Below are positions 9,012 to 29,000 of a stretch of DNA of 57,685 nucleotides, piece by piece. The translations under genes and the position numbers were made by a program. The notes below the pieces were generated by a model, which worked only from the letters and a program-made list of their open reading frames with translations, searched no databases and had not been told where the DNA came from. The stretch is from Jiangella aurantiaca (GTDB lineage Bacteria; Actinomycetota; Actinomycetes; Jiangellales; Jiangellaceae). The stretch spans positions 1 through 57,685 of the forward strand of contig NZ_SMLB01000038.1 of assembly GCF_004349105.1 (NCBI RefSeq), read 5' to 3'. Each line of letters starts with the position of its first letter. Position 1 is the first letter of the stretch.

Positions 9012-9172
9012 CGCGCCTTCCCTTCTGCAGTCTCATTCAGAAGTCGGGTTGCGCAACGATCGCGAACTCTCTCCAATCGACATTCGCCCTGGACCGAGGA
9101 CTCTGGGGGACCTTCGGCCCCCCGTCGCCCGTCGGTGTTGCACAACCCTCCTTGGCCCTGCACGTTCCGAGC

Positions 9173-9202
9173 ACCGTATTCGCGGGCCCGATCCGTTGTC
9201 AA
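9173..9202 (-). promoter_or_regulatory. Sigma-70-type promoter for the binding-protein operon
   Basis: On the minus strand TTGACA (9202-9197) is followed after 18 bases by TACGGT (9178-9173). The -35 is a perfect match and the -10 fits TANNNT. It lies about 160 bases upstream of the ATG at 9011, leaving a long leader. No other promoter-like pair stands out in the 258-base divergent gap. Confidence 0.6.
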
Positions 9203-9218
9203 TGGAGAAAACTGATAC

Positions 9219-9258
9219 CTAGCAAAAGTTTCCACCACTCGCTAGGGTGCCGCCCATG
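9219..9258. promoter_or_regulatory. Candidate operator in the divergent promoter region
   Basis: CTAGC (9219-9223) and GCTAG (9241-9245) form a spaced inverted repeat enclosing AAAGTTTCC. They are followed by GGGTGCCGCCCATG (9245-9258). Much of this layout recurs at 15891-15926, next to another operon of the same island. It sits just upstream of the -35 of the minus promoter and overlaps TAGGGT (9243-9248), a possible -10 for the plus-strand gene. Control by the local RpiR protein is inference. Confidence 0.4.
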
Positions 9259-9269
9259 GAGGCACAGAG

Positions 9270-10289: not shown

Positions 10290-10437
10290 GCGCCGCCCCG
10301 TCATGTCCGCACCCGTCGCGGCCCGCGCCCGGGGGCCACCGCGCCGCCCGACGTCCGGACCATGCCGTGGACGCCACCGCGCGTCCCGGTGATCTCCCTG
10401 CGCGTGTACCCCGATCACAGCGAATCGAAGGAGAGCC

Positions 10438-12978
10438 ATGTCCGAACGCACCCGCCGGCGCCGCTGCTACCGCGCGGCCGCACCGGCCGCCGCCGTGCTC
10501 CTGTGCGCGGCGGCACTGTCCACCTCCCCATCCACAGCCGCCGCGACCCCGTTCGCCGACGGCGTCACCGCCAGCACCGTCTTCGAGCGCGGCGAGAACG
10601 GCTACCACTCGTTCCGCATCCCCGCGATCATCGAGACGCCCGACGGCGACCTGCTGGCCTTCGCCGAGGCCCGGGTCGGCGACGCCGACGACAACGGCGA
10701 CATCGACATGGTCATGAAGCGATCCGTGGACGGCGGCCTCACCTGGACCGACTTCACGGTCGTCGCCGATGCCGGCCCGAACAAGTGGGGCAACCCGGTG
10801 CCGATGGTCACCGACGAGGGCGACCTCGTCCTCAACATGACCCGCACCGGCGGAAACGTCACCGGCGAGGACGTCCGCTGCGGCAACGCCACCGCGGAGG
10901 AGACCCGCCGCTCATTCATGATCCACAGCACCGACGACGGCGAGACCTGGATCGACCTCACCGAGGTGACCGCCGCCGTCAAGCCGGCCAACTGGGGCCA
11001 TTTCGTCGGCGGTCCCGGCCACGGCGTCACCATGACGGATCCGGACCACCCGAGCCGGCTGGTCATTCCCGGCAACCACTCGATCTTCCCGCCTCCGGGC
11101 TCGGGCATCGACTGCCTGGATCCGAGCCTGCTCGGCGCGCACGCGCTGTACAGCGACGACGACGGCGCGACCTGGCAGCTCGGCGCGGTGGACCAGCCGC
11201 AGACCACCGGCTACCACCCGCACGAGTCGACTGCGGTGGAGCTCGACGACGGAACGCTCTACTTCAACGCCCGCGACCAGCGCGGTGACAGTGCCGGCCT
11301 GCGCGTCGACACCACCAGCAGCGACGGCGGCGAGACGTTCGACGCGACGTTCGGCCCGATGGACGGGGTCGTCACGACCGAGATCGGCGGCTCGGTGATC
11401 AACGTCGCGGACCCGGCCCACGGCAGCCGGCTGGTCTTCTCCGCGCCGGGCCACCCCACCGCGCGGGAGAACCTGACGCTGTCGTCCAGCTTCGACGACG
11501 GCACCACCTGGCAGGAGAGCCTGCGGCTGTACGACGGCCCGTCCGGCTACTCGGATCTGATCGACCTCGGCGGCCAGAGCATCGGCGTGCTGTTCGAGAA
11601 CGGCGAGCGGCTGTACGACGAGGTCGAGCTGTTCTACAGCCACCGCATCAGCTTCGCCGTCGTGCCGCTCGCGCTCCTGGACGGCACGCCGGATCCCGAG
11701 CCGGTGACGCCGGACACCTCAGGCAACGGACACGACGGCCTCGTGAGCGGGGACCCGCAGCTCGTCGGTGCCCGGTTCGGCACCGGCATGGCGATGGCCG
11801 GCGACTACGTCGAGCTCCCGGCCGACGCCGACCTGGAGTTCGGCAGCGGGGAGTTCACGGCGGCCACCTGGTTCCGCAGCACCGACTCGACGTTCTCCCA
11901 GGCCCTGTTCTGGGCCTATTCGCGCATCGAGGGCGAGCCGACGTGGTGGATACGGCTCCAGTCGGGGGACGTCGTGGCGCAGCTCGAGACCGCCGGGGAC
12001 GCCCGGACGATCCGCGTGGACGGCGCCTACGCCGACGGCCAGTGGCACCACGTCGCACTCACCCGCTCCAGCAGCGGCGTGACGCTGTACGTCGACGGCG
12101 TGGCGGCCCCGGCCGTGCCGGCGATCTCCGGCTCGATCTCCGGCGATCCGCGCACGGGCATCCGGGTCGGCGCACGCGTCGACGGCGTCAACAACCCGCT
12201 GCGCGGCGCGGCCGACGAGGTGTGGCTGTTCGACCAGGCCCTCACCGCGGCGCAGGTCAGCACGCTGATGACGTCGAACACCGGGCCGGCGACGGCGACG
12301 GTGGCGCACCTGCCGCTGGACACCGTCGAGTGCGCAAGCGGCCCCCAGGCGACGCCCGACACCTCCGGTCAGGGCAACACCGTCACAGTCGTGGGCTGCG
12401 CGGCGCCGGTCGACGGCCCGTTCGCCGACGCGGCCGAGCTGTCCCACGCCGACCACGTGGAGGTGGCCGACCACTCGAGCATCCGGGTGGCCAGCCAGCC
12501 GTTCACCGCGTCGGCCTGGTTCCGCAGCACGGAGGCCTCCGACCAGGCCATCCTGTGGGCACACGACTACGGCGCCAGCCACCCGCAGTGGTGGGTCCGG
12601 CTGGAGCCCGGCCAGAGCCGCATCCGGGCCAATCTCAACGACGGGACGACGACGGCGTCGCTGGAGGCGCCCGGCGCGTATGCCGACGGCGAATGGCACC
12701 ACGTCGCGTTGACTCGGGACACCGGCGGGACGTCGCTGTACGTCGACGGCGTGCTGGCAGACGCCGCCGGCCCCGTGACCGGGTCGCTGTCCTTCGGCGC
12801 GTCCTACGGCATCCATGTCGGCCAGCGGCCGGACGGGCAGAGCCCGCTCAGCGGCGCCGTCGACGAGGTGTGGCTGCTGAACCAGGCTCTGACGGCGACG
12901 CAGGTCGGCACGTTGATGCAGCAGAACACGGTGCCGTCCGGCTCCGCCCGGCTGCACCTCCCGCTCGACGACCTGTGA
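10438..12978 (+). CDS. Secreted sialidase-like (BNR) protein with two LamG domains
   Basis: An 846-residue protein starting with an Arg-rich N-region, a hydrophobic core and an Ala-rich cleavage zone (signal peptide about residues 1-37). Residues about 45-410 form a six-bladed propeller of the GH33 sialidase type: FRIPAI is the conserved FRIP arginine motif, and Asp-boxes appear as SVDGGLTW, STDDGETW, SDDDGATW, SSDGGETF and SFDDGTTW. Two concanavalin-like LamG/Laminin_G_3 domains follow (about 425-615 and 635-845). Each has the GEFTAATWFRS or QPFTASAWFRS start and GQWHHVALTR or GEWHHVALTR core, so they look like an internal duplication. There is no sortase motif, so it is released. Expected reaction: hydrolysis of terminal sialic acid or a related nonulosonate. 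AAGGAG precedes the ATG. Confidence 0.85.
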   Translation: MSERTRRRRCYRAAAPAAAVLLCAAALSTSPSTAAATPFADGVTASTVFERGENGYHSFRIPAIIETPDGDLLAFAEARVGDADDNGDIDMVMKRSVDGGLTWTDFTVVADAGPNKWGNPVPMVTDEGDLVLNMTRTGGNVTGEDVRCGNATAEETRRSFMIHSTDDGETWIDLTEVTAAVKPANWGHFVGGPGHGVTMTDPDHPSRLVIPGNHSIFPPPGSGIDCLDPSLLGAHALYSDDDGATWQLGAVDQPQTTGYHPHESTAVELDDGTLYFNARDQRGDSAGLRVDTTSSDGGETFDATFGPMDGVVTTEIGGSVINVADPAHGSRLVFSAPGHPTARENLTLSSSFDDGTTWQESLRLYDGPSGYSDLIDLGGQSIGVLFENGERLYDEVELFYSHRISFAVVPLALLDGTPDPEPVTPDTSGNGHDGLVSGDPQLVGARFGTGMAMAGDYVELPADADLEFGSGEFTAATWFRSTDSTFSQALFWAYSRIEGEPTWWIRLQSGDVVAQLETAGDARTIRVDGAYADGQWHHVALTRSSSGVTLYVDGVAAPAVPAISGSISGDPRTGIRVGARVDGVNNPLRGAADEVWLFDQALTAAQVSTLMTSNTGPATATVAHLPLDTVECASGPQATPDTSGQGNTVTVVGCAAPVDGPFADAAELSHADHVEVADHSSIRVASQPFTASAWFRSTEASDQAILWAHDYGASHPQWWVRLEPGQSRIRANLNDGTTTASLEAPGAYADGEWHHVALTRDTGGTSLYVDGVLADAAGPVTGSLSFGASYGIHVGQRPDGQSPLSGAVDEVWLLNQALTATQVGTLMQQNTVPSGSARLHLPLDDL

Positions 12979-12997
12979 CCGTCTGCCGCTGAACGCC

Positions 12998-13035
12998 CGT
13001 GAGGGCGGGTCCGCCGAAGCGGATCCGCCCTCACG
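12998..13035. terminator. Bidirectional hairpin between converging genes
   Basis: A 17-base stem with one mismatch (12998-13014 against 13019-13035) closed by a CGAA tetraloop. It lies 20 bases past the sialidase stop and overlaps the stop of the converging dehydrogenase gene, so it should end transcription from both sides. There is no U-tract, which is usual in GC-rich actinomycetes. Confidence 0.75.
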
Positions 13036-14023
13036 CGTACGTGTCGTACGCGGCTCTGGACATCTCGTGCTCCAACGGCTTCCCGGCCAGGAACCTGAGC
13101 ACCTCGTCGACCGTCACGGCCCCCTGGTCGCGCAGTGTCTCGGCGGTGAGCGCCGCGATGTGCGGCGTCGCCACCACGCCGTCGCAGTGCCGCCACGGGT
13201 CGTCGGGCGGGAGCGGCTCGGTGTCGAAGACGTCGGTCATGACCCGCACGCGCCCGGCCCGCGCCGCGGTCAGCAGGGCATCGCTGTCGACGAGCGCGGA
13301 CCGCGCCGTGTTGACCACGAGCGCGCCCGGGCGAAGCGCGTCGATCTCGGCGGCGCCGATCATGCCTCGCGTCTCCGGCAGCACCGGCGCGTGGAGCGAC
13401 ACGACGTCGGCGGCGCGCAGGAGCGCGGGCAGGTCGATCCGCTGCGCGCCGAGGCCGGCCGCCTCGACGTCGTCGATGAACGGGTCGTACACCAGGCAGT
13501 GGCAGCCGAACGGGCGCAGCCGTCGCAGCGTCGCCCGGCCGGTGCGGCTGGCGCCGACGATGCCGACCACCTGGTCGCGCAGCAGCCGGCCTGGTGGTCG
13601 GGCGGCCAGCGCGGCCCAGGACTCGCCGGCGCGCATGGCCGTGGCGAAGGACACCGCGTCGCGCAGCCCGGCGATGATCGACATCACCGCGAATTCGGCC
13701 ACCGCCTCGGCCAGCACGGCCGCCACCTGGGTGATCCGGACACCGTGGTCCAGTGCGGCCGCCGGCACGAGGTGCCGCACCGATCCCCCGGTGTGTGCCA
13801 CCAGAACGGGCCGGTCGCCGCCGACGAGCCACGAGAACGGCAGCGACGGCGTGTCCCAGCCGGTGATGCAGACGTCGGCGCCGTCGACGGCGCCCGGGTC
13901 GGCCGCGGCGTCGGGCACCGGGCGCACCTCGGCGACGGCCGCCAGCCGGTCCCAGTCGCGGTCGCTGATCAGCCGGTGCCGCAGGTCGTCGCTCATCGCG
14001 ACGGCGACGATCCCCGTCGTCAC
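13031..14023 (-). CDS. D-isomer-specific 2-hydroxyacid dehydrogenase family protein
   Basis: A 330-residue NAD-dependent dehydrogenase. The nucleotide-binding motif is GIVGASRTGRAT near residue 154 (variant of GxGxxG). The catalytic triad is recognisable as the Arg of TARSALVD, the Glu of FDTEPL and the His of TPHIA. Such enzymes interconvert 2-keto and D-2-hydroxy acids, which fits the FAH-family partner just upstream. The GTG start overlaps the stop of that gene (GTGA), implying coupling. The gene is last in its operon and ends inside the shared hairpin. Confidence 0.88.
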   Translation of the reverse strand: MTTGIVAVAMSDDLRHRLISDRDWDRLAAVAEVRPVPDAAADPGAVDGADVCITGWDTPSLPFSWLVGGDRPVLVAHTGGSVRHLVPAAALDHGVRITQVAAVLAEAVAEFAVMSIIAGLRDAVSFATAMRAGESWAALAARPPGRLLRDQVVGIVGASRTGRATLRRLRPFGCHCLVYDPFIDDVEAAGLGAQRIDLPALLRAADVVSLHAPVLPETRGMIGAAEIDALRPGALVVNTARSALVDSDALLTAARAGRVRVMTDVFDTEPLPPDDPWRHCDGVVATPHIAALTAETLRDQGAVTVDEVLRFLAGKPLEHEMSRAAYDTYA

Positions 14024-16602: not shown

Positions 16603-16663
16603 GTTGATCATGGAGAAACGCCCTTCTCCAGCGCCCGGAAAGGGGCGTTTCTCCATGATCAAC
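16603..16663. terminator. Perfect 21-bp palindrome, terminator or REP-like element
   Basis: Bases 16603-16623 (GTTGATCATGGAGAAACGCC then C) are exactly complementary in reverse to 16643-16663, with a 19-base loop. It begins 20 bases past the stop of the DUF4383 gene and so can act as its terminator. However, the stem is unusually long, AT-richer than its surroundings, and contains the palindrome TGATCA, more like a dispersed intergenic palindrome than a simple terminator. Confidence 0.7.
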
Positions 16664-17221: not shown

Positions 17222-17403
17222 GTGCAGAGGAGATACCCGCAGGCGGCCGGTACACGCACCTGCCCGTCGTGCTCACACATTCCGGTCGTGACCGGGATGC
17301 CGGGGCCGGGAAGTCGACCGTGACCAGACTGGTCGCCGAACGGTTACCGCGTTCGGCCAGGCTCGCGGGCGACGAGCTGAACCGGATGATCGTCAGCGGT
17401 TTC
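17222..17403 (+). pseudogene. Remnant of a P-loop kinase/ATPase gene
   Basis: Translation gives IPVVTGMP in one frame up to 17299, then after loss of one base GAGKSTVTRLVAERLPRSAR and LAGDELNRMIVSG in another. Joined, this is a good Walker A (GMPGAGKST) and first helix of a small P-loop kinase. The remainder is missing: the reading frame passes straight into the Zur-box promoter at 17405 and stops at 17433. It appears to be a 5' fragment with a frameshift, truncated when the zinc island was joined here. No product is expected. Confidence 0.5.
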
Positions 17404-17404
17404 A

Positions 17405-17451
17405 TGAAACTCGTTATCAATGGCTATTGTTAATAGTAACGGTTCTCATTA
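17405..17451. promoter_or_regulatory. Two Zur-like boxes upstream of the WxL-type surface protein
   Basis: TGAAACTCGTTATCA (17405-17419, plus strand) and TGAGAACCGTTAC (minus strand, within 17436-17451) match each other and four other sites in this region. The shared form is close to TGANAATCGTTATCA and resembles published actinobacterial Zur boxes (TGAAAATGATTTTCA). The AT-rich TATTGTTAAT between them may be the -10 region. The start codon follows at 17489. Confidence 0.65.
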
Positions 17452-17488: not shown

Positions 17489-18964
17489 ATGAGGACCCTG
17501 CTCTCGGGGGGCGCCAGGTCCGTGGCCGTCCCCGTTGTCGCGGGTGCGCTGCTGGCGGCGGGCGTCACCGCCACCGCGGCGGCCGGCGAGTTCGAGCTGG
17601 TGCTCGACTCCGGCCATATCGACGCGTTCACGTTGACCTGGCAGGACGACACCCTGGCCGTCAGGCTGCAGGAGGACGTCACCGGGCACCACGTCCAGCA
17701 TGCGCCCGAGGACGTGCTGCTGCAGGTCAAGCCCGAGGCGGCGCTGGTGCTGCCCGACCCGGTGCCGCCGAGCCTGTCCTTCCTCGGCCAGGCCGGAGAC
17801 ACCGTGTACTACCTGCCCCAGACCCAGGACCCGGAGCTGATCTGGCCAGGCTGGAGCACCGAGCAGATTCCCGCCGGCGTGTTCACCAACCCGCTGCGCA
17901 TCGAGATCACCGACGTCCAGGGACCCGGCGAGGTGTTCCTGTGGCAGAGCGGCTCGTTCGGCGAGTCGATCTCGGTCCTGGGCGGCGGCTACCAGCTCCC
18001 TGGCACGATCTCCCCGAACGCCAACGTGCACGCGCACGCCAACTGGGCCTTCACGGAGGCCGGCCGGTACACGCTGACGGTCCGGGCCAGCGGGACCCTG
18101 GCGAGCGGCGGCACGGTCACCAGCGCGCCGGCCACCTACACGTTCCAGGTCGGCGACGCCGACCCCGTCCCGTCGACCACCCTCAGCATCTCCGGCCTGG
18201 CCGATCGCTACCAGCCTGGTGACGTCGTGACCCTCACCGCGCTCCAGGACCCGCCGACAGGGCTGGACCACTACCACTGGTTCACCCGGGCGCCGGGCAG
18301 CGACGAGTGGGTGGTCGTGCCCGACGCCGGCACTGGCGAGTACAGCTTCACCGCCACGGCCGAGCACGACGGCGTCCAGGTCCTGGTCCGGCTCTACGAC
18401 GCCGACCACGCCGTGGTCGCGGAATCCGCGCCGGTCACCCTGGTCGTCGACGATGACGGCGGCGAGCCCGAGCCGGGCGAGGCGTCGCAGCGGATCGTCG
18501 CCAAACTGCCCGAGGACGAGGGCGCCCTGGTGGTCGGCGTCGACCCCGACGACGACGTCGTGACCATGAGCGACTTCGAGCTCGGCACCGCCGCCGACCG
18601 ATGGATTTCCACCGGCGAGCTGCGGCCGGTCACGGTCACCGACACCCGGGCGTCTGCGCCCGGCTGGGTGGTCTCGGGCCAGGTGAGCGACTTCACCGCC
18701 GGCGACGAGGTGCTGCCCGGCCGACACCTGGGCTGGACCCCGCTGGTCGCCGAGGAGCCCGACGGCGGCGGCGTGACGGCGGGCGACATCGTGGCTCCCG
18801 GCCTGGAGTCCGGCGACGGCCTGTCCGTCAGCCGGCCGCTGGCCAGCGCGCCGACCGGCGACGGCACCGGAACCAGCCGCCTCGGCGCCGAGCTGCTGAT
18901 CGAAGGACCGACGACGCTCGTTCCCGGCACCTACGAGGCGACGATCACCTTCACCGCGATCTGA
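17489..18964 (+). CDS. Secreted choice-of-anchor-M protein with Ig-like and WxL-like domains
   Basis: A 491-residue exported protein (signal peptide about 1-33, AATAAA before the domain). Residues 34-225 form the actinobacterial surface-anchored repeat domain: SGHID at 41-45, LPQTQDPELIWPGWST in the middle, GPGEVFLWQSGSFGE and NVHAHANWAF with His181 and His183. The paired histidines and the early HxD make a plausible metal site (inference). An Ig-like domain follows (about 230-325). The last 150 residues contain PGWVVSGQVSDF and end PGTYEATITFTAI, resembling the WxL cell-wall-binding domain. The next gene encodes a DUF916 protein, the usual WxL partner. AAGGA precedes the ATG, and two Zur-like boxes lie upstream. 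Confidence 0.82.
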   Translation: MRTLLSGGARSVAVPVVAGALLAAGVTATAAAGEFELVLDSGHIDAFTLTWQDDTLAVRLQEDVTGHHVQHAPEDVLLQVKPEAALVLPDPVPPSLSFLGQAGDTVYYLPQTQDPELIWPGWSTEQIPAGVFTNPLRIEITDVQGPGEVFLWQSGSFGESISVLGGGYQLPGTISPNANVHAHANWAFTEAGRYTLTVRASGTLASGGTVTSAPATYTFQVGDADPVPSTTLSISGLADRYQPGDVVTLTALQDPPTGLDHYHWFTRAPGSDEWVVVPDAGTGEYSFTATAEHDGVQVLVRLYDADHAVVAESAPVTLVVDDDGGEPEPGEASQRIVAKLPEDEGALVVGVDPDDDVVTMSDFELGTAADRWISTGELRPVTVTDTRASAPGWVVSGQVSDFTAGDEVLPGRHLGWTPLVAEEPDGGGVTAGDIVAPGLESGDGLSVSRPLASAPTGDGTGTSRLGAELLIEGPTTLVPGTYEATITFTAI

Positions 18965-18985
18965 CCTCCGCTTCCACCACAGACT

Positions 18986-19020
18986 CGGCGCGACCGGCCT
19001 CGCCCAGGCCGGTCGCGCCG
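18986..19020. terminator. Strong intercistronic hairpin
   Basis: A perfect 15-base GC-rich stem (18986-19000 against 19006-19020) with a five-base loop lies between the WxL-like gene and the DUF916 gene on the same strand. It could terminate most transcripts after the first gene, giving more of the surface protein than of its partner, or protect the upstream mRNA end. Confidence 0.7.
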
Positions 19021-19049
19021 ACCCCTGCCTCGACCCTCGGAGCCCGTCC

Positions 19050-20072
19050 GTGCGACCCATCGGCCGACTCGCGGCCCTCGTCCTGATCACCGCCGGCATC
19101 GCCCTGCCGGCGACCGCGGGTGCCGACGACGACGCCGGCGAGCAGGCACCGCTGACCTGGGGCATCGTGCCGTCCGGCCCCGACGGCCCCGGTGACCGCG
19201 CCGCCTTCGCGTACGTCCTCGATCCCGGCGCCGTGATCAGCGACGTGGTCGCCGTCAGCAACTACACCGAGCAGCCGCTCACGCTCGACCTCTACGCCAG
19301 CGACGCCGTCCGCAACACGCAGGGCGGCTTCGACCTGCTGCCCGCCGCCGACGAGCCCATCGACGTCGGCGCGTGGGTCGATCTCGGCGATCCTGTCGTC
19401 ACCATCCCGGCCCGCTCGCGCGTCGATGTCCCCTTCCGGATCACCGTCCCGGCGAACGCGACGCCCGGCGATCACGCCGGTGGCATCGTGGCCGGGCTGA
19501 CCACGCACGCCACCGACAACGCCGGCGGCCAGGTCGCCGTCGACCGCCGGGTGGGCGCCCGCATCTATCTCCGCGTGACCGGCACGCTGCAGCCGCAGCT
19601 CACCGTCGACGACGTCGACGTCGCCTTCGACGGCCTCCCGCTCGGCCAGCCCGGCACGGTCCGGGTGGAGTACACCGTCCGCAACGACGGCAACGTGCGG
19701 CTCGCCGGCCGGCCCACCATGCGCGTCGCCGGGCCGTTCGGGCTCGGCGAGCGCGTCTGGACCGGCGACGTGCTGCCGGAGCTGCTGCCGGGCGACTCCG
19801 TCGCCGGGTCGGCCACCGTCAGCGGCGTGTGGCAGCTTGGACCCCTCGACGTGGACATCGTGATCCGGCCGGAGACCTCGGGGACCCAGGTCCTCGATCC
19901 CGCCCCGCCGCCCGGCACGTTCGCCACCCGGCTGTGGGTGGTGCCGTGGATCGCCCTCGCGGCGCTCGCCACCATGGTCGTCGCCCTCGTCTGGCGACGG
20001 CGTCGGCGAGCCGCCCGGCGGACGATCGTCCAGCGAACGGAGCACGCGGCCGGCCGCACTTCCGTCATCTGA
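19050..20072 (+). CDS. DUF916 (WxL-interacting) membrane-anchored protein
   Basis: A 340-residue protein with a signal peptide (about 1-24), two beta-sandwich regions and one C-terminal membrane helix (about 291-312) followed by an Arg-rich cytoplasmic tail. The first half has AFAYVLDPGAVISDVVAVSNYTEQ in two parts (DPGAVISDVVAVSN is the key match), the N-terminal DUF916 pattern. The second half has GTVRVEYTVRNDGNVRLAG. In Firmicutes DUF916/DUF3324 proteins bind WxL proteins and peptidoglycan. A GTG start with GGAG upstream is used. It probably holds the preceding protein at the cell surface; that partnership is inferred from adjacency. Confidence 0.78.
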   Translation: MRPIGRLAALVLITAGIALPATAGADDDAGEQAPLTWGIVPSGPDGPGDRAAFAYVLDPGAVISDVVAVSNYTEQPLTLDLYASDAVRNTQGGFDLLPAADEPIDVGAWVDLGDPVVTIPARSRVDVPFRITVPANATPGDHAGGIVAGLTTHATDNAGGQVAVDRRVGARIYLRVTGTLQPQLTVDDVDVAFDGLPLGQPGTVRVEYTVRNDGNVRLAGRPTMRVAGPFGLGERVWTGDVLPELLPGDSVAGSATVSGVWQLGPLDVDIVIRPETSGTQVLDPAPPPGTFATRLWVVPWIALAALATMVVALVWRRRRRAARRTIVQRTEHAAGRTSVI

Positions 20073-20108
20073 AGGGTGCCGCCGCCAGCGCGCGACGGTA
20101 AGGTCCAC

Positions 20109-20126
20109 TGAGCACCGTTATCATTA
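20109..20126 (+). promoter_or_regulatory. Zur-like box upstream of the DUF318/DUF1980 pair
   Basis: TGAGCACCGTTATCATTA matches the other boxes of the island (TGANNACCGTTATCA core). It lies 25 bases upstream of the GTG at 20151, close enough to overlap the promoter and block it. GGAGG follows at a proper distance from the start. Confidence 0.6.
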
Positions 20127-20150: not shown

Positions 20151-21134
20151 GTGAGCGATCTGCAGGTCACTGACGAGCGCCGCCGCCTCGGCCGGTTCGT
20201 CCCCGAACTGTTCGTGCTCGTGCTGGTAGCGGCGGTCCTGCTGCGGCCGCGCGTGGCGGGCTGGTTCGACAGCGCGACCCTGCAGACGTGGTCGACGGTG
20301 TTCGTGTCGATCACGCTGCAAGCCCTGCCCTTCCTCGTCCTCGGCGTCGTGGTGAGCGGCGCGGTGACGGCGTTCGTGCCGTCCTCGCTCATCGCCCGGC
20401 TGCTGCCGGACCGGCCGGCGGTGGCCGTGCCGTCGGCTAGCCTCGCCGGGGCGGTCTTCCCGGGGTGCGAGTGCGGGTCGGTGCCGATCGCCGGGCGACT
20501 CACGTCGCTGGGCGCTGCGCCGGCTGCCGCGCTGGCGTTCATGCTGGCCGCGCCCGCGATCAACCCCGTCGTCATGGCCGCGACCGCAGTCGCGTTCCCG
20601 GGGCAGCCGGAGATGGTGCTCGCCCGGTTCCTCGCCTCGTTCGCCGTCGCCGTCGTCGTCGGACTGCTGTGGTCGCGGTTCGGCCGCGGCTCGTGGTTGC
20701 GCCTGCCGCGACGCGCGGTGCCCGAGGGCGCGAACCGCTGGGACGTGTTCGCCGGCACGGCCCGGCACGACTTCCTGCACGCCGGCGGCTGGCTCGTCGT
20801 CGGCGCCGCAGCGGCCGCCGCCTTGCAGGTGTTCATACCCCGCTCGCTCGTCACCACGGTCGCCACGAACGAGTGGCTGGCGGTCCTCGTGCTGGCCGGG
20901 CTCGCCGTGCTGCTGGCGCTGTGTTCCGAGGCGGACGCGTTCGTCGCGGCCAGCCTGTCGCAGTTCTCGCTCACGGCCCGGCTGGTCTTCCTCGTGGTCG
21001 GCCCGGCCGTCGACATCAAGCTGATCGCGCTGCAGGCCGGCACGTTCGGCCGCGGCTTCGCGCTGCGGTTCGCACCGCTGACCTTCGTCGTCGCGGTGTC
21101 GAGCGCGCTGGTCGTCGGGTGGTGGGTGTTGTGA
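20151..21134 (+). CDS. DUF318/ArsP-like permease
   Basis: A 327-residue membrane protein with about eight helices, of the UPF0718/DUF318 permease family. Conserved features are FPGCECGSVPIAGRL with Cys106 and Cys108, MLAAPAINPVVM and CSEADAFVAASL with another Cys. ArsP members export organoarsenicals, but the YcgR-like members paired with DUF1980 proteins have no settled substrate. Zinc control here points to a metal- or thiol-related cargo (inference). The GTG start is supported by GGAGG and by similarity beginning immediately. It overlaps the next gene by four bases. Confidence 0.85.
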   Translation: MSDLQVTDERRRLGRFVPELFVLVLVAAVLLRPRVAGWFDSATLQTWSTVFVSITLQALPFLVLGVVVSGAVTAFVPSSLIARLLPDRPAVAVPSASLAGAVFPGCECGSVPIAGRLTSLGAAPAAALAFMLAAPAINPVVMAATAVAFPGQPEMVLARFLASFAVAVVVGLLWSRFGRGSWLRLPRRAVPEGANRWDVFAGTARHDFLHAGGWLVVGAAAAAALQVFIPRSLVTTVATNEWLAVLVLAGLAVLLALCSEADAFVAASLSQFSLTARLVFLVVGPAVDIKLIALQAGTFGRGFALRFAPLTFVVAVSSALVVGWWVL

Positions 21135-21841
21135 GGCTCATGGACCGGCGGACGGAGTCTGTGCTGCTGCTCGCGGTCGGCGCGGTCGGCGTCCGGTTCG
21201 GGTTCTCCGACGCCGCCCTCGCCTACCTCAAGCCGAGCTTCCAGCCGATCCTGCTGATCGCCGGTGTGGTGCTGGTGCTGCTCGGCGGGCACGGGCTGCT
21301 GCGCGACTCGGCCCGGCCCGGTTCGCCTGGCGGTGGGGAGCACGGCGACCACGACGACCACGGCGGGCCCGGGGTCGCCTGGCTGCTGGCCGTCCCGCTG
21401 CTGGTGCTGTTGCTCATCGCGCCGCCGGCGCTCGGCTCGTTCGCCGCCGGCCGGCAGGGACCGGTCGCGTCCGTGTCCGACTCCGGATTCGTCGAGCTGC
21501 CGGCCGCTCGCGAGGGCGCCGTCGACCTCGGCCTGCGCGACTTCGTCACCCGCGCCCTCCAGGACCCGGAGCGCTCCCTCGACGGCGTCCCGGTACGGGT
21601 CGTCGGGTTCGTCATGCCGGACGAGTCGGGCGACGGGTACCTGCTGTCGCGGTTCACGGTCGCCTGCTGCGCCGCCGACGCGACCGCCTACACCACCCGC
21701 GTGGTCGGCGACGGCGAGCGGCCCGCCGACACCTGGGTCGAGGTCACCGGCCGCTGGGAACCCGGCGACGGCGACGTGCCGGTCCTCGAGGCCGACACCG
21801 TCACCGTCGTGCCGGCTCCCGAGGAGCCCTACGAGTACTGA
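21131..21841 (+). CDS. DUF1980/TIGR03943-family partner of the DUF318 permease
   Basis: A 236-residue protein with two N-terminal membrane helices, a His/Asp-rich loop between them (GEHGDHDDHGG), a third helix near residue 85, and an external C-terminal domain with FVMPDESGDGYLLSRFTVAC followed by CAADATAY. The double cysteine and adjacent residues are conserved in this family, which is consistently found beside DUF318 permeases (YcgQ/YcgR in Bacillus). The His-rich loop is a candidate metal site. GTG at 21131 overlaps the stop of the permease (GTGA) and is chosen for that reason; an ATG three codons later is the alternative. Confidence 0.83.
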   Translation: MRLMDRRTESVLLLAVGAVGVRFGFSDAALAYLKPSFQPILLIAGVVLVLLGGHGLLRDSARPGSPGGGEHGDHDDHGGPGVAWLLAVPLLVLLLIAPPALGSFAAGRQGPVASVSDSGFVELPAAREGAVDLGLRDFVTRALQDPERSLDGVPVRVVGFVMPDESGDGYLLSRFTVACCAADATAYTTRVVGDGERPADTWVEVTGRWEPGDGDVPVLEADTVTVVPAPEEPYEY

Positions 21842-21886: not shown

Positions 21887-22777
21887 CTAGGCGGCCGAGA
21901 CCGGCGCCGGGCTCTCCTCGAGTCCACCGCGCCGCCAGCGCTTGGCGACCAGGCCATGGCGAGGCGCGAAGGTCCAGGCCGTCAGGAACACGCCGGCCAG
22001 CACGAGCACGATGGTGCCGCCGACGGGCAGGTCGTAGCTCCACGACAGGTACAGCCCGACGACGGCGCCGGACCCGCCGATCGCGGGTGCGAGCAGCATC
22101 ATCACGCCCAGGCGGTCGGTGAGCAGCCGGGCCGTCGCGGCGGGGGTGACGAGGAGTGCGAGCACGAGGATGTTGCCGATGGTCCGGACGGAGATGACGA
22201 TCGCGATGGTCACCAGGACGTAGAGCGCGATGTCGAGCCAGAACACCCGCAGGCCGACCGCGCGGGCCAGTTCGCGGTCCAGGCTGACGGTGACGAACTG
22301 CTGGTGCAGCAGCAGCACCGCGGCAAGAAGCAGCAGACCGATGACGGCGGCCGTGTAGAGGTCCTCGTCCGGGACGCCGGTGATGGAGCCGAACAGGAAC
22401 TGCTGCAGCGAGCCCGCGTACCCGGGCGCCTGGGAGATGATCACGACGCCGAGCGCGAATGACGCCACGTAGAAGACGCCGATGACGGAGTCCTCCTTGA
22501 TCCGGCGGTTCTGCGCGAACACCGCCACCAGCACCGCGGTGACGACGCCGGCCACCGCTCCCCCGACGACCAGGCTGCCCTGCAGCACGAACGCCACCGC
22601 CAGTCCCGGGAAGACGGCGTGCGCGACGGCGTCGCCGATGAACGCCATCCCGCGCAGCACGACGTAGCAGCCGACGACGCCGCAGACCACGCTCGACATC
22701 ACCGCGATCAGCAGCGCCTTCGGCAGGAACGCGAGGTCCGGGTTGGTGAGGTCGGCGATGAACTCGGGGATCGACAC
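21887..22777 (-). CDS. Anchored-repeat-type Zn/Mn ABC transporter permease
   Basis: A 296-residue permease of the ABC-3 (ZnuB/MntB) family with about eight helices. Recognisable segments are VLRGMAFIGDAVAHAVFPGL near residue 45, the standard family start, and LVTPAATARLLTDRLGVMML near 190, the coupling region. It belongs to the actinobacterial subgroup linked with anchored repeat proteins, as the gene order shows. It begins three bases after the ATPase stop and ends a five-gene operon. It should carry Zn or Mn across the membrane from the binding protein encoded upstream. Confidence 0.92.
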   Translation of the reverse strand: MSIPEFIADLTNPDLAFLPKALLIAVMSSVVCGVVGCYVVLRGMAFIGDAVAHAVFPGLAVAFVLQGSLVVGGAVAGVVTAVLVAVFAQNRRIKEDSVIGVFYVASFALGVVIISQAPGYAGSLQQFLFGSITGVPDEDLYTAAVIGLLLLAAVLLLHQQFVTVSLDRELARAVGLRVFWLDIALYVLVTIAIVISVRTIGNILVLALLVTPAATARLLTDRLGVMMLLAPAIGGSGAVVGLYLSWSYDLPVGGTIVLVLAGVFLTAWTFAPRHGLVAKRWRRGGLEESPAPVSAA

Positions 22778-22780
22778 GGC

Positions 22781-23524
22781 TCACATCACCTTCAGGATCT
22801 TCAGCAGCGGGCTGTTCTCACCGACGCCGAACGCGCGCATCCAGGGATCGGGATCCAGCAGCTCGCTCGGCGGCGCGTCGGCGACGATCGTCCGGTTCAG
22901 CAGCGCGATGCGCGTGCAGGTGTCCAGCGCGCCGAGCAGGTCGTGGGTCGTCATCAACACCGCCTTGTCTTCGCCGGCCAGTTCCTGGAACAGGCCCGTG
23001 AGCAGCTCCTGGGTGGGCAGATCGAGGCCGGTGAACGGTTCGTCCAGCAGCAGCACCCGCGGTTGCAGCGCCAGCGCCCGGGCCACCAGGACCCGCTGCC
23101 GCTGCCCGCCGGAGAGCTCGCCCACCGGCCGGCGCGCAAGGTCGCTCATGCCCACCCGCTCCAGGGCCGCCGCGACCGCCCGCCAGTCGTCCACCCCGGG
23201 CCGGCGCAGGAGGCCGATGCGGCCGCTGCGGCCGGTCATGACCGCGTTCTCGACCGAGATCGGGAAGTCCCAGGCGAACTCGTGCCGCTGCGGCACATAG
23301 CCCACCGGTGAGCGGCGCGGCCGGACCGGCCGGCCGTCGACGAGCACTCGCCCGGATGCCACCCGCACCAGGCCGAGGATCGAGCGCAGCAGCGTCGTCT
23401 TCCCGGCCCCGTTCGGACCGATCAGGCCGGTCAGCTCACCGAGGCCGAGCGTCAGGTCGATGTCGCGCAGGACCGTGCGACCGCCCAGGCCGACGGTCAC
23501 CCCGCGGACCTCGAGGACGCTCAC
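22781..23524 (-). CDS. Anchored-repeat-type Zn/Mn ABC transporter ATPase
   Basis: A 247-residue ATP-binding subunit of the ZnuC/MntA type. Motifs: Walker A GPNGAGKTT near residue 37, Q-loop GYVPQRHEFAWDFPISV (the WDFPISV form is typical of metal importers), signature LSGGQRQR near 140, Walker B LLLDEPFTGLD, and H-loop TTHD. The GTG start overlaps the stop of the preceding anchored protein gene (GTGA). The C-terminal extension ending LLKILKVM is seen in the anchored-repeat subgroup. Confidence 0.93.
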   Translation of the reverse strand: MSVLEVRGVTVGLGGRTVLRDIDLTLGLGELTGLIGPNGAGKTTLLRSILGLVRVASGRVLVDGRPVRPRRSPVGYVPQRHEFAWDFPISVENAVMTGRSGRIGLLRRPGVDDWRAVAAALERVGMSDLARRPVGELSGGQRQRVLVARALALQPRVLLLDEPFTGLDLPTQELLTGLFQELAGEDKAVLMTTHDLLGALDTCTRIALLNRTIVADAPPSELLDPDPWMRAFGVGENSPLLKILKVM

Positions 23525-24471
23525 GGCCGGGTCTCCGCGGCCGCCGCCCCGGCGGCGGCGCGGCGCTTCGCACCCCGGCCGCGCAGGAGGACGACCACCA
23601 GGGCGACGACGAGGACAGCGGCCGCACCGGCCACTCCCAGGAGGACCGGAGCAGGGCCACCGTCCTCGTCGGGCTCGTCCACCGCCGCGGCGGGCGAGCT
23701 GGTGCCGTCCGCCCCGGCACCCGGACCAGACGCGCCGGCGTACTGCGCGGCGAAGGCGTCGTCGGTGCTGGTGGCGTCGCCGACGGCGAAGCGGAGGACC
23801 TGCGTGTCCGACTCGGCCTCGCCGGAGACCAGGTCGGCCGAGACCTCCACCTCCACCAGGTAGACGCCGGGCTCCGAGAACACCCAGTTGGCATGCGTGT
23901 GCGTGTTCACCTCGACCCAGACGTCCTGCGGGTAGGGCTCGCGGCTGTCCCAGAGCACCTCGGGCTCGCCCAGCGTCCCGCTCTGCAGGAACATCACCAC
24001 GTCGCCCGGCCCGTCGACGCCCCGCAGGGTCAGGGTCGCGCCGCGGTCGATGGTGTCCATGACGGTCGGGTCCTGAGTGTTCCATCCCACCCAGACGACC
24101 CCGGGCTGCTCCGCCTGCGGCACGACGTGCACGTCGGTGCCCGCCTCGGCCGGCAGGAACGCGTAGTCGGGGGTGTCCGGCACCGTCGTCAGGGACGCGT
24201 CGGCGACCTGGAACACGGTGGTCGGCATCGTCCGCCACACCGGCGTGGCCGTGGTGCCGTCGTGGACCAGCAGCGTCCACCGGCCGTCGACGTAGCGCGG
24301 GCCGATGTCGACGTGACCGTCGCTCAGCACCGCCTGTTCGGTGGCGACGGGCTGGTCGGCGTCGATCTCCTGGTCCAGGCTCGGGTCGTCGGCGGCCACG
24401 GCGGCGGCCGACGCGGTCACCGTCAGCAGGCTCGCCCCGAGCAGGGACACCGTCCGGAATCGTCGCGTCAT
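23521..24471 (-). CDS. Choice-of-anchor-M surface protein, membrane-anchored
   Basis: A 316-residue exported protein: signal peptide (about 1-27), one surface-anchored repeat domain (about 45-235) and a C-terminal membrane helix (about 275-297) with a basic cytoplasmic tail. The domain has DGHVDIGPRY with His53, VHVVPQAEQPGVVWVGWNT in the middle, GPGDVVMFLQSGTLGEPEV and NTHTHANWVFSEPGVY at its end. These correspond position for position to the domains in the neighbouring proteins. Both ends overlap neighbours by four bases. A role in catching or passing metal close to the membrane is inferred from the operon. Confidence 0.85.
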   Translation of the reverse strand: MTRRFRTVSLLGASLLTVTASAAAVAADDPSLDQEIDADQPVATEQAVLSDGHVDIGPRYVDGRWTLLVHDGTTATPVWRTMPTTVFQVADASLTTVPDTPDYAFLPAEAGTDVHVVPQAEQPGVVWVGWNTQDPTVMDTIDRGATLTLRGVDGPGDVVMFLQSGTLGEPEVLWDSREPYPQDVWVEVNTHTHANWVFSEPGVYLVEVEVSADLVSGEAESDTQVLRFAVGDATSTDDAFAAQYAGASGPGAGADGTSSPAAAVDEPDEDGGPAPVLLGVAGAAAVLVVALVVVLLRGRGAKRRAAAGAAAAETRP

Positions 24472-26057
24472 TGCTCTCTCTCCGCTGGTTCGGACAGGCA
24501 GGAGCGCAGCGACTCGGCGTTGAATCGCATCATCTCCACGTAGCTGGTGACCTCGTCGTCGAACGTGTCGCCATAGATCGGGCAGACGCGGACGCTGAGG
24601 TCGTCGGCGACCTCGGTGAGCGTCGAAGAGCGGGTCACCAGGTTCGGTTCGAGGAAGACCGCCGGGATGCGCAGGTTGCGGATGGTCTCGGCCAGCTTGC
24701 GGCGGTCGGCCAGGCTGGGTTCCGTGGCCGGGTTGGGGGTGACGAACCCGGAGATCTGCACGTCGTAGGCGGCGCCCAGGTAGCCGAACGCGTCATGCGT
24801 GGTGATCAGGTGGCGGCGCGACTCCGGGATCTCCGCGATCGTGTCGCGCACGTGCTGGTCGAGCTCCTCCAGCTCGCCGATGTACCGGTTGGCATTGTCG
24901 CGGTACTCGCGGGCGCCGTCGGGGTCGACGCCGATCAGCGTGTCGCGCATCAGCTCGACGTAGGAGATCGCGTTGCCGGCGTCGTGCCACAGGTGCGGGT
25001 CGATCTCGCCGTGGACGTGCCGGCCCAGCACCGCCTGCGGCAGCTGGAAGATCGGGTCGCCGGGATGGCCGAGGAACCGGAAGCCCTCGTCGGCGGGGAT
25101 CTCGTGCAGCGCCTTGTTCGGCACCTCGATCACGGTGCTCGCCGGGTCGAGGACCTCGGCGTGCGCATGATCGTCGCCGCCGCCTTGCGGGTCGACCAGG
25201 AGGTACAACTCGCCGGCATCGATGTCGACGGTCACGTCGGCGTGGCCGGAGCCGAGCACGTCCGCGCCCTCCATGCCGGGCACCGCATGCGGGTCCACCC
25301 CGACGGCGAACGTGAACGTCTGCTCCCCCACGTCGACCGGACGCTCGTCCGGCGCGGGCGCCAGCGTGGCGCGCATCGTCAGCCGGTACACCCCGGGCTC
25401 GGTGAACGCCCAGCTCATATGCGTGTGCGCGTCGGGCGGCAGGGTGGCGGTGTCGTCGCGGTACCCGTCGGCGGCGTCGAACCCGTCGGTGGAGTCGACG
25501 TAGAACGCCGGGTTGCCGAACGACTCGGTCAGGTACGCGACCAGGTCGCCCGGCCCGTCGACGGCGGTGCCGCTGAGGTAGACGTCCGAGGCGCGGTTCG
25601 CGCCGTACTGCTCCCCCGTCCCGCGCACCCGCATGCCCAGCCAGATCGTGTCGAGGGCGACGTTCTCGACCAGCGGGATGATCTCCGCCGCGTACTTCAC
25701 CGCTCCCTCGGCGAGCGAGATGTTCGGGACTCCCGCGTCGAGGTTGGCGTCCAGCGCCTTGATGATCGCTTGCTGCTCCAGCAGCAGGTAGTTGCTGAAC
25801 GCCACGTCGGCGTAGACGACATTGCGGACGTCGCGCAGGCTCGGCTCGTACGAGTGCGGGTCGGCCTGGTCGGGCACGAGCGAGCTGACGTTCACCCGGT
25901 CGCCGCCGATGTTGCGGACGAGGTCGGCCAGCAGCCCGGTGGTGGTGATCACCTGCACCCGGTCGTCGCTCGCGCTCAGCGTCTCCGGTGCCGCGCACGC
26001 CGACAGGACGAGCCCGGCGGCGGCCAGCCCGGCCGCTGTCCTAAGCCCGGCCCGCAC
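24468..26057 (-). CDS. Metal-binding lipoprotein (ZnuA-like) with an inserted anchored-repeat domain
   Basis: A 529-residue binding lipoprotein (lipobox LSAC, Cys21). The ZnuA-like fold is split: residues about 30-128 contain the first ligand His68 (DQADPHSYEP), and about 348-529 contain His355 (EIDPHLWHD), His421 (TTHDAFGYL) and Asp497 (YGDTFDDE). Between them lie about 210 residues related to the anchored-repeat domain but in swapped order: the second half (GPGDLVAYLTESFG, DAHTHMSWAFTEPGVY) comes before the first half (SGHADVTVDIDAGELYLLVD, FLGHPGDPIFQLPQ). It also has a HAHAE run. Insertion between ligands 1 and 2 places extra histidines near the mouth of the metal site. GTG start, overlapping the upstream gene by 17 bases. 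Confidence 0.9.
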   Translation of the reverse strand: MRAGLRTAAGLAAAGLVLSACAAPETLSASDDRVQVITTTGLLADLVRNIGGDRVNVSSLVPDQADPHSYEPSLRDVRNVVYADVAFSNYLLLEQQAIIKALDANLDAGVPNISLAEGAVKYAAEIIPLVENVALDTIWLGMRVRGTGEQYGANRASDVYLSGTAVDGPGDLVAYLTESFGNPAFYVDSTDGFDAADGYRDDTATLPPDAHTHMSWAFTEPGVYRLTMRATLAPAPDERPVDVGEQTFTFAVGVDPHAVPGMEGADVLGSGHADVTVDIDAGELYLLVDPQGGGDDHAHAEVLDPASTVIEVPNKALHEIPADEGFRFLGHPGDPIFQLPQAVLGRHVHGEIDPHLWHDAGNAISYVELMRDTLIGVDPDGAREYRDNANRYIGELEELDQHVRDTIAEIPESRRHLITTHDAFGYLGAAYDVQISGFVTPNPATEPSLADRRKLAETIRNLRIPAVFLEPNLVTRSSTLTEVADDLSVRVCPIYGDTFDDEVTSYVEMMRFNAESLRSCLSEPAEREQ

Positions 26058-29000
26058 GGCGATCGCGCCAGTACGCCGCCATCGCGACCGCTCCCGCCAT
26101 GACCAGCAACCCGCCGAGGACCGTCAACCCCGGTGTCGCCGACGTGCCGGTGCTCGCCAGGTCGCAGTCGTCGTCGGCGGCGGGGGTGGTCGTCGTCGGC
26201 GACGGGGTCGGCGTGCTCGTCGGCGTCGGTGTGGGCGAGGGCGTGGCGTCGATCCGCGTCATTGTCGGCTCGGTCCGGTGGACGGCCGGAGCGACGACGC
26301 CGGCGCGTGACGCCGACACGTTGCTCGTCCCGGACAGCTCACCGACCACGAACGAGTACTCCACCGGGCCGGTCGTGACCGCCCCGCCGCCGGCCAGCGT
26401 CCCGCTCACCTCGAACGTCAACGTGTAGCTGCCCTCAGCGGAGAACGCCCAGTTCGCGTGCACGTGCTGACCGACGCTCTGCTGCCGCGCCGGCAGCGAC
26501 TCCTCCGAGCTGAAGATCCGGCTGACGTCGCCGAACCCGGTCGTCTGGAACACCTCCACCGTGCCCGGACCCGCGACGTCGACCAGCCGCATGTCGACGG
26601 TGTCGCCACTCAGCTGACCGGGCGCGAGCTCCTCCGTCGACCAGCCGGCCCACACCAGGTCCGGGTTCTGCGTCTCCGGGATCAGCCACAGCGGCGCGCC
26701 GGCCGAACCGAGGAACGCGTAGGTGTCGCCGTCGGGCACCGTGCTCGCCGCGGCCTGGCCGACGTGGACCAGCACGTCACCCGGATCGTAGAACGTGTGG
26801 TCCGTCGCCGAACCCACCTTCGCCTGCAGCTCGAGGCTGGACCCGTCCAGGCGCGGCGACAGCAGGTCGACGTGCTCGTTCGTCAGCACCACCGGATCGC
26901 CGGACGTGCCGCCCGGTGCCGACGGGTCACCGCTCGGCGTGCTGGGCGTCGAGCTCGGCGTGGGCCGCGGGTCGCACACCTCGTTCGTCGGCTTGGTCGT
27001 CGGCTTCGGGCTCGTCCCGTCGTCGTCTCCCCCGCTCGCGCCGCCGTCAGCGCCTGCGGCGTCTCCGCCGTCGTCGGCGCCGTCCTCGGTCCCGCCGGTC
27101 TCGGTGCCGTCGGCGCCCGACTCCGTGCCGTCGTCCGCGCCGCTCTCGTCCGTACCGCTCTCGTCAGCGCCGCTCTCGTCGGCGCCGCTCTCGTCGCCAC
27201 CGGTGTCTGTGCCGTTCTCCCCCGACTCGGTGCCGTTCTCGTCACCCGGATCAGGGTCGCATTCGATGTCGCCGACGACGAAGGCGTAGTCGACCGGACC
27301 GCTCGACACCTCGGTGCCGTCGGCCAGCGTGCCGCTCACCTCGAACGTCACCGTGTACTCGCCGAGCGCGGTGAACGCCCAGCTCGCGTGCGAGTGCACC
27401 GGGACGTCCTGGACCAACGGCTCCAACGACTCGTCGGAGCTGAAGTTGCGCACCGGTGCCGCGCCCGCGAAATACTGGAAGACCTCCACGTCGCCGGGCC
27501 CTTCGACGTCCACCATCGTGATGTGGACGATGTCGTCGCGGAACGCGCCCAGCGGAAGCTCCTCCGTCGACCAGCCGGCCCATACGACGTCCTCGAGCTG
27601 GTGCTGCGGGATCACCCACACCGTCGAGCCCAGCTCAGCGATGAACGCGAGCTGCTCGTCGTCGGGCAGGACGACCGCCGCCTCAGGGTCGTTGACCTGC
27701 ACGAGCACCTCGTCCGGTGTGTAGAAGACGTGGTCGTTCGCCGAGCCCACCTTCGCCTCGAGCACCAGCTCGTCGCCGGTGAGACGCGGCGAGACCAGGT
27801 CGACGTGCTCGTCATCGAGTACGACCCGCGGGTCGTTCTCACACGTGCCCGGCCCCTCGTCGACGCTCAGCGTGAACGGAGCGGAGTGCGCCACGTGCAC
27901 GCCGTCGTCGGTGTAGAGGGCCGCGCGGTACTGCCGGCCGTCGTCGGCGGCGGACGGCGTGACGGTCAGCGTCTCCGTCGTGGCGCCGTCGACGGGGTCG
28001 AACGTCAGCGCGCCCGGCGCGCGGGTGGACCACTGGTAGGCCGTGAGGCCGGTCGGCGGGTCCTGCGTCACCGTCAGCGTCACCGGCTCGCCCGCGGGGA
28101 CGGCGCCGCCGGGCCCGGCGACCGTCAGCGTCGTCGCCGGCGGCTCGACGTTGCCCTCCTCGACCGTGACGGTGACCGTCGCGCTGGTCGACGGCGCGTA
28201 GAACTGCGGCTCCTGCGACGTGTACGTGGCGGTGACGGCGTGCTCGCCCGGCTCGGCGAACGTCACCGGCAGCGTGGCACGGCCGTCGGTGAGCGGCGCC
28301 CAGCCCAGCGCGGTGTCGCCGTCGTGGAACTGGACGTACCCGCCCGGCGCCGGCGGCGCGCCGGAGCCGGGATCGGTCGTCACGCCGGCCTCGAGCACGA
28401 CCTCCTCGCCCACGACGGCGGTCGGCGGAGCCTGCAGGGTCGTGGCGGACGGCGCGGCCGCCGGCAGCGCGCCGTTCTCGCCGCCGACGACCCAGGTGTA
28501 GTCGACCGGGCCCGACGTGACCGGCGCGCCGCCGACCGTCGCCGCGACCGTGAAGGTCAGCGTGTAGACGCCTGGCTGGGTGAACGCCCAGTTCGCGTGG
28601 ACGTGCGCGTTCACGCCCTGCCGCAGGGTCGTGTAGTCCTCGTCAGAGCTGAAGATCCGGATCGGCTCTCCGAACGAGCCGGTCTGGAACACCTCGACCT
28701 CGCCCGGCCCGCGCACGTCCGTCAGCGTGATGTCCACGGCGTCGCCGTCGACGACCCCGGCGGCGATCTCCTCGGTGCTCCACCCCGCCCAAAGGACGTC
28801 CGGGTTCTGGGTCTGCATGATCACCCAGGCCGTGTCGGCGCCGATGAACTCCGCATACTGCTCGGGCAGTCCTTCGACGCGCCCGAGGTCGGAGAGCTGG
28901 TACACCAGGTCGTCCACATCGACGTGCTCGACCGGCGGGCCGATCTTGGAATCGACTGTCAGCCGCTCGCCGTCGAAGCCGACGTTGATGGCGTCGACGT

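Follow-up and report, generated by a model that had tools for sequence, protein, structure and literature searches.

A diverged WxL-like domain and its neighboring WxL-interacting protein in Jiangella aurantiaca: a candidate zinc-responsive surface display pair in the Actinomycetota

The classical WxL domain carries two Trp-x-Leu motifs, the distal one of the form YXXX(L/I/V)TWXLXXXP, and Firmicute WxL proteins interact in vitro with a transmembrane partner, according to the WxL passages of PMC10599100 and PMC5817068. This partner, the WxL-interacting protein (WxLIP), was defined in Firmicutes (PMC10599100), which also supply more than 91% of 938 WxL sequences (PMC9772566); predictions of WxL proteins fall mainly within Lactobacillales and Bacillales (PMC5817068), and the WxL passages of PMC4449606 deal with lactobacilli. 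In the portions of these sources concerned with it, WxL anchoring has so far been described as almost wholly Firmicute and mostly serving host or surface adhesion, and none of the literature matches listed, which cover mostly non-subscription papers, describes a WxL system in actinobacteria. Here we analyze a 57,685-nucleotide stretch of the soil actinomycete Jiangella aurantiaca (contig NZ_SMLB01000038.1, positions 1 to 57,685; hereafter the window), in which a gene for a 491-amino-acid, predicted secreted protein with a WxL-like tail (17489-18964) is followed by a gene for a 340-amino-acid protein with a DUF916 domain (19050-20072). Both open reading frames (ORFs) were found adjacent and on the plus strand, where the first-pass annotation, made from the sequence alone, had placed them.

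The locus resembles the WxL/WxLIP clusters of Lactobacillales and Bacillales (described in the corresponding parts of PMC10599100 and PMC9772566; PDB entries 9i25 and 9i1y) in its C-terminal domain on secreted proteins, in the existence of small stand-alone and large versions, and in an adjacent DUF916 protein with a C-terminal membrane helix, the profiles being homologous. Unlike the Firmicute clusters, the actinobacterial ones have lost the second W-x-L motif, mostly carry W-x-V as the first, show no DUF3324 sequence match, and bear payloads that include choice-of-anchor M (cAM) and HtaA domains, phosphatases, a peptidase, and glycoside hydrolases. The Jiangella locus also resembles the anchored-repeat ATP-binding cassette (ABC) transporter locus of Corynebacterium diphtheriae (troA-dip0445, CmrA/CmrA2; TIGR03769-TIGR03773), where zinc and Zur regulation is reported for a transporter operon whose subunits bear the same family names and for mutually related surface-anchored proteins, in the part of PMC6711530 devoted to them. 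The likeness of the two transporters was judged by family names, and the Jiangella cAM protein differs in having a WxL-like tail and its own WxLIP; the term WxL occurs 0 times in the main text of PMC6711530. The family names TIGR03769, TIGR03772, and TIGR03773 were not mentioned among the literature matches listed. A further relative is the group of Ang-2 loci of Actinomycetota, where DUF916 genes lie beside metal-dependent secreted proteins with metallophosphatase neighbors (PMC12537917, in its neighborhood account); DUF916 there is a neighbor in a count, and that account does not describe a WxL-like domain on the partners. With a probability of roughly seven in ten, we read the Jiangella genes as an actinobacterial WxL/WxLIP pair, in which a cAM protein made under zinc starvation would be held at the surface by WxL-WxLIP docking, beside a sister protein of the sortase type.

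The first-pass annotation had proposed a WxL-like C-terminal module bearing PGWVVSGQVSDF and PGTYEATITFTAI, both of which are present in the 491-amino-acid protein, and profile comparisons and modeling delimit this domain at 18488-18961. Scanned singly, the window protein fell below the cut-off of the Pfam WxL family (PF13731; E 0.15, 12.4 bits, cut-off 25), and more sequences were therefore needed to test WxL homology. A search with the tail only gave matches in 18 of 396 actinobacterial genomes, and 27 regions were taken, covering the 29 tail matches outside the window. A hidden Markov model (HMM) of 33 actinobacterial tails retrieved 13 of the 15 annotated WxL domains from Firmicutes (E 4.8e-12 to 8.9e-5), while none of 3,000 shuffled domains matched it at E up to 10. 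The comparison with the WxL family suggested as a check in the first-pass annotation came out in its favor. A reduced profile of 27 sequences, from which the six sequences of loci L063-L067 were left out (the Firmicute profile gives its highest scores to L066, L063, and L067), recovered 9 of the 15 at E < 0.01 and gave an hhalign match of 95.4% (E 1.7e-8). The alignment of 55 actinobacterial WxL-like domains against 14 annotated Firmicute WxL domains reached 97.2% (hhalign, E 4.3e-11), versus 0.8% and 4.6% for the control comparisons with the cAM and WxLIP alignments. PF13731 was matched by 37 of 59 tails scanned one at a time at E up to 0.1 (next-ranked families, 3/59), and it exceeds its Pfam cut-off in 8 of the 396 genomes, the window's genome not being among them.

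The motifs of the domain are partially conserved. The first motif (18665-18673) reads W-V-V here, where the classical family has W-x-L, and its Trp is kept in 59/59 actinobacterial domains, followed at +2 by V (36 domains), L (15), or another residue (8). At the position of the second Trp the window protein has Phe (18950-18952); Trp occurs there in 14/15 Firmicute and 0/59 actinobacterial domains. The Tyr of the distal motif is conserved in 59/59 actinobacterial domains and the Thr in 57/59, and the aligned cores read VTVTDTR..APGWVVSG versus Firmicute VQVTDKRGTQEGWSLSV, with domain ends GTYEATITFTA versus EYRTTLTWNL. The C-terminal position, the length of about 160 to 190 amino acids, and the clustering with a DUF916 gene all agree with the WxL family. 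Because the second Trp is lost in all 59 domains while the first is kept, the tail was classed as WxL-like: on sequence comparison it is a homologous yet diverged relative of the classical WxL domain. The proposed module stands, with only the first Trp of the dual motif kept.

The following gene had been called DUF916-like, and this identification was borne out by a DUF916 (WxLIP_PGBD) domain at 19206-19487 (PF06030, 36.5 bits, cut-off 27.3; 39.1 bits in a genome-wide search); the same Pfam family is matched by 47 of 48 WxLIP family members at E up to 0.01. The actinobacterial WxLIP profile aligns with its Firmicute counterpart (hhalign, 97.3%, E 2e-11) and finds EfmWxLIP1 in the PDB (E 1e-11). 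An AlphaFold2 model of the protein (mean predicted local distance difference test [pLDDT] score, 91.0) has 9i1y and 9i25_C as its top PDB matches (Foldseek, 6.3e-12 and 8.5e-12), with Z scores of 15.9 and 16.9 and root mean square deviations of 6.3 and 6.1 over 236 to 237 residues. Chain 9i25_C is an Enterococcus WxLIP whose PDB description reads "WxLIP ... bound to long WxL," and its alignment with the model covers both domains despite no listed DUF3324 sequence match, the second beta-sandwich being placed by the model in the DUF3324 position (19593-19940). The protein ends in a helix (19947-20060; model helix 285-322) with a hydrophobic stretch and an RRRRR tail; here as elsewhere in this study, signal peptides and membrane spans were assigned by eye. 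Sequence profiles and the predicted fold together indicate that the 340-amino-acid protein is a WxLIP homolog.

The two families travel together across the phylum. A WxLIP gene is present in 27/27 regions around WxL-like matches. A profile survey of 396 actinobacterial genomes listed WxLIP in 78 (E up to 1e-10) and the WxL-like domain in 35 (E up to 1e-5), counts that are lower bounds since few (five) candidates were scored per genome. The literature agrees with the first-pass annotation that WxL domains are mainly known from Firmicutes; the system in the window is not a one-off, and "DUF916" already appears in actinobacterial annotation. Of 64 WxL-like domains, 59 lie no more than 6 kb from a WxLIP, which is immediately downstream and on the same strand in 46 cases, and 32 of the 35 genomes with the domain have a listed WxLIP. 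Elsewhere in the window's genome, a different contig carries a second pair, consisting of a 246-amino-acid stand-alone WxL-like protein followed by a WxLIP (the "small WxL" arrangement). Plasmid records of Cellulosimicrobium and Clavibacter show a WxL-like gene annotated as hypothetical beside a "DUF916 domain-containing protein," and Firmicute records show the same WxL/DUF916 pairing. Distances among WxL-like domains correlate with those among their partner WxLIPs (r 0.917, 46 pairs), and swapping partners within genomes gave a maximum r of 0.866, with 0 of 2,000 swaps reaching 0.917. Paralogous WxL-like/WxLIP pairs evolve together. The pairing would assign a function to actinobacterial "DUF916 domain-containing" proteins and to their "hypothetical" neighbors, and the two-protein module is seen in an actinomycete genus and, by profile, in 35/396 genomes, with metal-acquisition and enzyme payloads.

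Both the closeness of the pairing and the partner fidelity suggest a role for the partner, which argues against a reading in which the WxL-like domain binds peptidoglycan itself and the WxLIP is an accessory. Peptidoglycan binding has been reported for Firmicute WxL domains (in the relevant passages of PMC10599100 and PMC5817068), and some WxL-like genes lie 0.7 to 5.4 kb from the nearest listed WxLIP or on the opposite strand to it, as that reading would allow. The second Trp is nevertheless absent in 59/59 of the domains examined, and we consider direct peptidoglycan binding unlikely as the principal mode of attachment.

Comparison of the models raises another alternative, in which the WxLIP, tethered to the membrane, would act as a chaperone that folds the WxL-like domains or passes them on as subunits, in chaperone-usher style. 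By Z score, the next whole-length matches of the WxLIP model are fimbrial chaperones (4ncd, Z 12.2 over 199 residues; 6k73_B, Z 11.8), and the AlphaFold2 model of the tail (18446-18961; mean pLDDT 92.6) has its highest Z score with the adhesin chain found in the complex of 6k73_B (6k73_C, Z 8.1 over 117 residues). Z scores around 8 are common, however; Foldseek places another sandwich first for the WxL-like model (9ifr, E 1.2e-3) and puts the biofilm protein RbmA ahead of the chaperones for WxLIP, and no donor strand was identified. Because the Z score is in the common range and Foldseek ranks the matches differently, the chaperone likeness was treated only as a lead, and a chaperone role appears improbable. 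That the tail is a mere Ig-like or pilin-like sandwich with a coincidental DUF916 neighbor, as the sub-threshold Pfam score and the generic beta-sandwich neighbors in the fold search might suggest, is very improbable given the profile-profile match with its negative controls, the pairing at 59/64 places, the partner fidelity, and the same pairing in Firmicute records.

Under the favored WxL/WxLIP docking, the tail would display a metal-related domain. The "metal-repeat domain" of the first-pass annotation proved to be a cAM domain (17600-18151, residues 38-221, containing HAHANWAF; NF038134, 5.6e-53, 179.7 bits, cut-off 55, NCBIfam) with a nested TIGR03769 match (4.5e-16). The protein missed the cut-off of TIGR03773, transporter-associated surface protein (155 versus 190.3 bits), the best stretch covering residues 56-226 only. 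Its cAM domain is 35 to 39% identical to the three cAM copies of a 1,034-amino-acid neighbor that ends in LASTG, a hydrophobic stretch, and a basic tail (26041-29145, minus strand; NCBIfam and sequence), and the His/Trp columns are invariant in an alignment of the five cAM copies of the window that were compared. The fused Ig-like domain (18170-18454), likewise foreseen in that annotation, is 45% identical to the Ig-like stretch of the LASTG protein. A script search found no LPXTG-type sortase pattern in the WxL-like protein, which also has no C-terminal membrane span, and sortase-independent display of this protein is a sound inference from its sequence. The LASTG protein itself scores below the cut-offs of the anchor models (LPXTG_anchor, 12.5 versus 15.9; LAVTG, 20.7 versus 27; Gram_pos_anchor, 13.4 versus 20); the window's genome has seven sortase matches.

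The proposal that the two surface proteins belong to the same regulon gained support from the 21-bp actinobacterial Zur-box consensus quoted in PMC5472717 (in the passage giving that consensus). With up to 3 mismatches allowed, the window contains five distinct matching places, and 100 shuffles gave no match; in the whole 6.6-Mb genome the consensus matched ten distinct places, versus 3 matches for the reversed control. Zur-box-like sites precede the cAM-WxL gene (17402-17422, 3 mismatches; 17431-17451, 2 mismatches), an ArsP_1 permease gene (20106-20126), the operon of the LASTG protein and the ABC transporter (29188-29208), and a COG0523-type gene (31722-30640) with ribosomal-protein-like ORFs (31730-31750; genes named by eye). 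A degenerate core, TGA(A/G)(A/C)A(C/T)(C/G)(A/G)TTA, precedes 7/8 Jiangella cAM-WxL genes by script and 4/4 LASTG genes compared; at the eighth cAM-WxL gene (locus L115) it was seen by reading, between the ORF start used and the ATG matching the others, which brings the count to 8/8. Before the ArsP gene, the degenerate core was found in the window and not in locus L111. A first operator pattern was dropped as circular, having been built from the sites themselves, and the published consensus was used instead. Position 17489 was favored over the ORF start at 17420 because the conserved operator would otherwise fall inside the gene, and (A/G)AGGATC(A/G)(C/T)G precedes the equivalent of the 17489 start in 6/8 Jiangella sequences compared. 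By these sites and by analogy with C. diphtheriae, the pair may be under Zur control in J. aurantiaca. Separately, a further operator-like site lies upstream of the LASTG operon (29247-29262, 3 mismatches to the local motif), the COG0523-type GTPase gene with L28- and S14-like ribosomal proteins (30069-31750, by eye) looks like a zinc-sparing cluster, and a Zur-box-like palindrome with 2 mismatches occurs elsewhere in the J. aurantiaca genome (G000, C81:13520-13540, locus L200).

The homology of both proteins, their gene pairing, their correlated divergence, and the Zur-box-like sites are computational results; docking, surface location, zinc binding, and Zur control in J. aurantiaca are inferences. 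Taken as a mechanism, low zinc would cause Zur to leave its boxes, and the secreted cAM protein would then be made. Its C-terminal WxL-like domain would dock on the ectodomain of the neighboring WxLIP, and with the WxLIP presumably fixed in the membrane by its one C-terminal helix, the cAM domain would stay at the cell surface, possibly with the help of peptidoglycan contacts of the DUF916 domain. The cAM domains would probably bind zinc or hand it to the nearby ABC transporter. The same cAM domain is carried in parallel by the LASTG protein, by a protein that has a hydrophobic stretch at its C terminus, and, as an insert, by the ABC substrate-binding protein, and the locus would offer a natural experiment with one domain in one predicted regulon and four anchoring contexts (WxL-like, LASTG, membrane span, and substrate-binding protein).

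Several results weigh against this reading. The window protein alone stays below the PF13731 cut-off, and the second motif of the dual W-x-L signature, named as defining, is missing. Searched against PDB sequences, an actinobacteria-only WxL-like profile gave only chance-like matches at E up to 10, the solved WxL chain 9i25_A not among them, and a profile of ten sequences including four from Firmicutes ranked 9i25_A first but only at E 0.1. The model of the WxL-like domain has generic beta-sandwich neighbors in fold searches (best Foldseek and Z matches as given above), and 9i25_A was not among the best 50 matches listed, an absence that in itself proves nothing. On the partner side, the families listed at E up to 0.01 for the 48 WxLIP members do not include PF11797 (DUF3324). 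PF06030 is a loose criterion: at E up to 1 it matches 9 of the 14 control genomes, 2 of them above cut-off, and the second WxLIP of the genome stays below its cut-off (21.8 bits), though within the family profile. The pairing is also incomplete: a WxL-like domain lies within 6 kb of 46 of 55 WxLIP places checked, leaving 9/55 without, and 5 of 64 WxL-like places have no WxLIP among the survey matches used. For two of these five, both in genome G268, a WxLIP was seen in the region (about 2 kb away in L051, adjacent in L058); the places in G376 (near a contig end), G157, and G189 still have none. Operon sharing alone could also yield correlated divergence. Finally, the Zur consensus reduced to its 15-bp core is barely above chance in the window (6 versus 1.49 expected), a count reached in 2 of 100 shuffles.

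Beyond the local locus, WxL-like tails elsewhere in the phylum are fused to a variety of payloads, including purple acid phosphatase (3 loci), phosphodiesterase, X-Pro dipeptidyl-peptidase, GDPD, GH18, GH43 with a ricin lectin, and fn3 domains. Several of the 19 WxL-like proteins scanned outside Jiangella gave no Pfam match at the limits used. In genome G204 (locus L053, C1:1519000-1535000) an HtaA heme-binding domain is fused to a WxL-like tail (5e-42) and accompanied by its own WxLIP (6634-9267 and 1899-3527); an ABC ATPase and a heme oxygenase lie about 3 kb away on the other strand. This protein is possibly a WxL-displayed heme receptor. An HtaA match in the Jiangella locus L121 was borderline (E 0.01, not listed at the 0.01 limit) and was left uncounted, so that only the G204 case was counted. 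Outside Jiangella, a cAM fusion was found only in G226 among ten proteins scanned with NCBIfam, and phmmer over loci L041-L075 gave no other. In locus L049, an X-Pro dipeptidyl-peptidase with a WxL-like tail lies beside another large WxL-like ORF and a WxLIP (7859-14010). A still broader scheme can be sketched only tentatively, and we rate it as rather unlikely: diverged WxL-like tails docked on a membrane-tethered WxLIP that works like a fimbrial chaperone (a two-domain clamp holding a pilin-like subunit) would form a general and so far little-recognized display system of the Actinomycetota, showing zinc-regulon cAM, HtaA, and secreted enzymes, and at a given locus it would be interchangeable with attachment of the same domain by sortase.

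Within the genus, the cAM-WxL gene is present in 8 of 12 Jiangella genomes and a WxLIP gene adjoins it in 8/8. The ABC transporter lies within the stretch examined at 7 of these 8 loci, the contig of the eighth being only 12.5 kb long, and in L112 and L113 the stretch examined did not include the LASTG gene. In sister Jiangella genomes a second, very large cAM-Big_3_5-WxL-like protein is encoded on the other strand (L110, 9227-12205; L111, 9950-12937; L112, 4381-9435), and in L110 and L111 its gene is divergent from the first cAM-WxL gene, with the operator between them. Replacement of the LASTG tail by a WxL-like tail in sister genomes is not supported, since L110 and L111, which have the second large WxL-like protein, still have the LASTG protein. 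A contig scan for the system, with patterns that require close likeness, returned two loci only.

Downstream of the WxLIP gene, the window encodes an ArsP_1 permease and a TIGR03943 subunit (20151-21134 and 21140-21841, plus strand; Pfam/NCBIfam), followed on the minus strand by the anchored-repeat ABC transporter (21887-26057) with its permease (TIGR03770), ATPase (TIGR03771), a cAM protein with a C-terminal hydrophobic stretch (23521-24471), and a substrate-binding protein (TIGR03772) that carries a cAM-like insert. Upstream, judged by eye alone, a sialidase-like secreted protein with two LamG-like domains is encoded at 10438-12978, and a perfect 21-bp inverted repeat at 16603-16663 (arms 16603-16623 and 16643-16663), perhaps a terminator, lies between two minus-strand ORFs.

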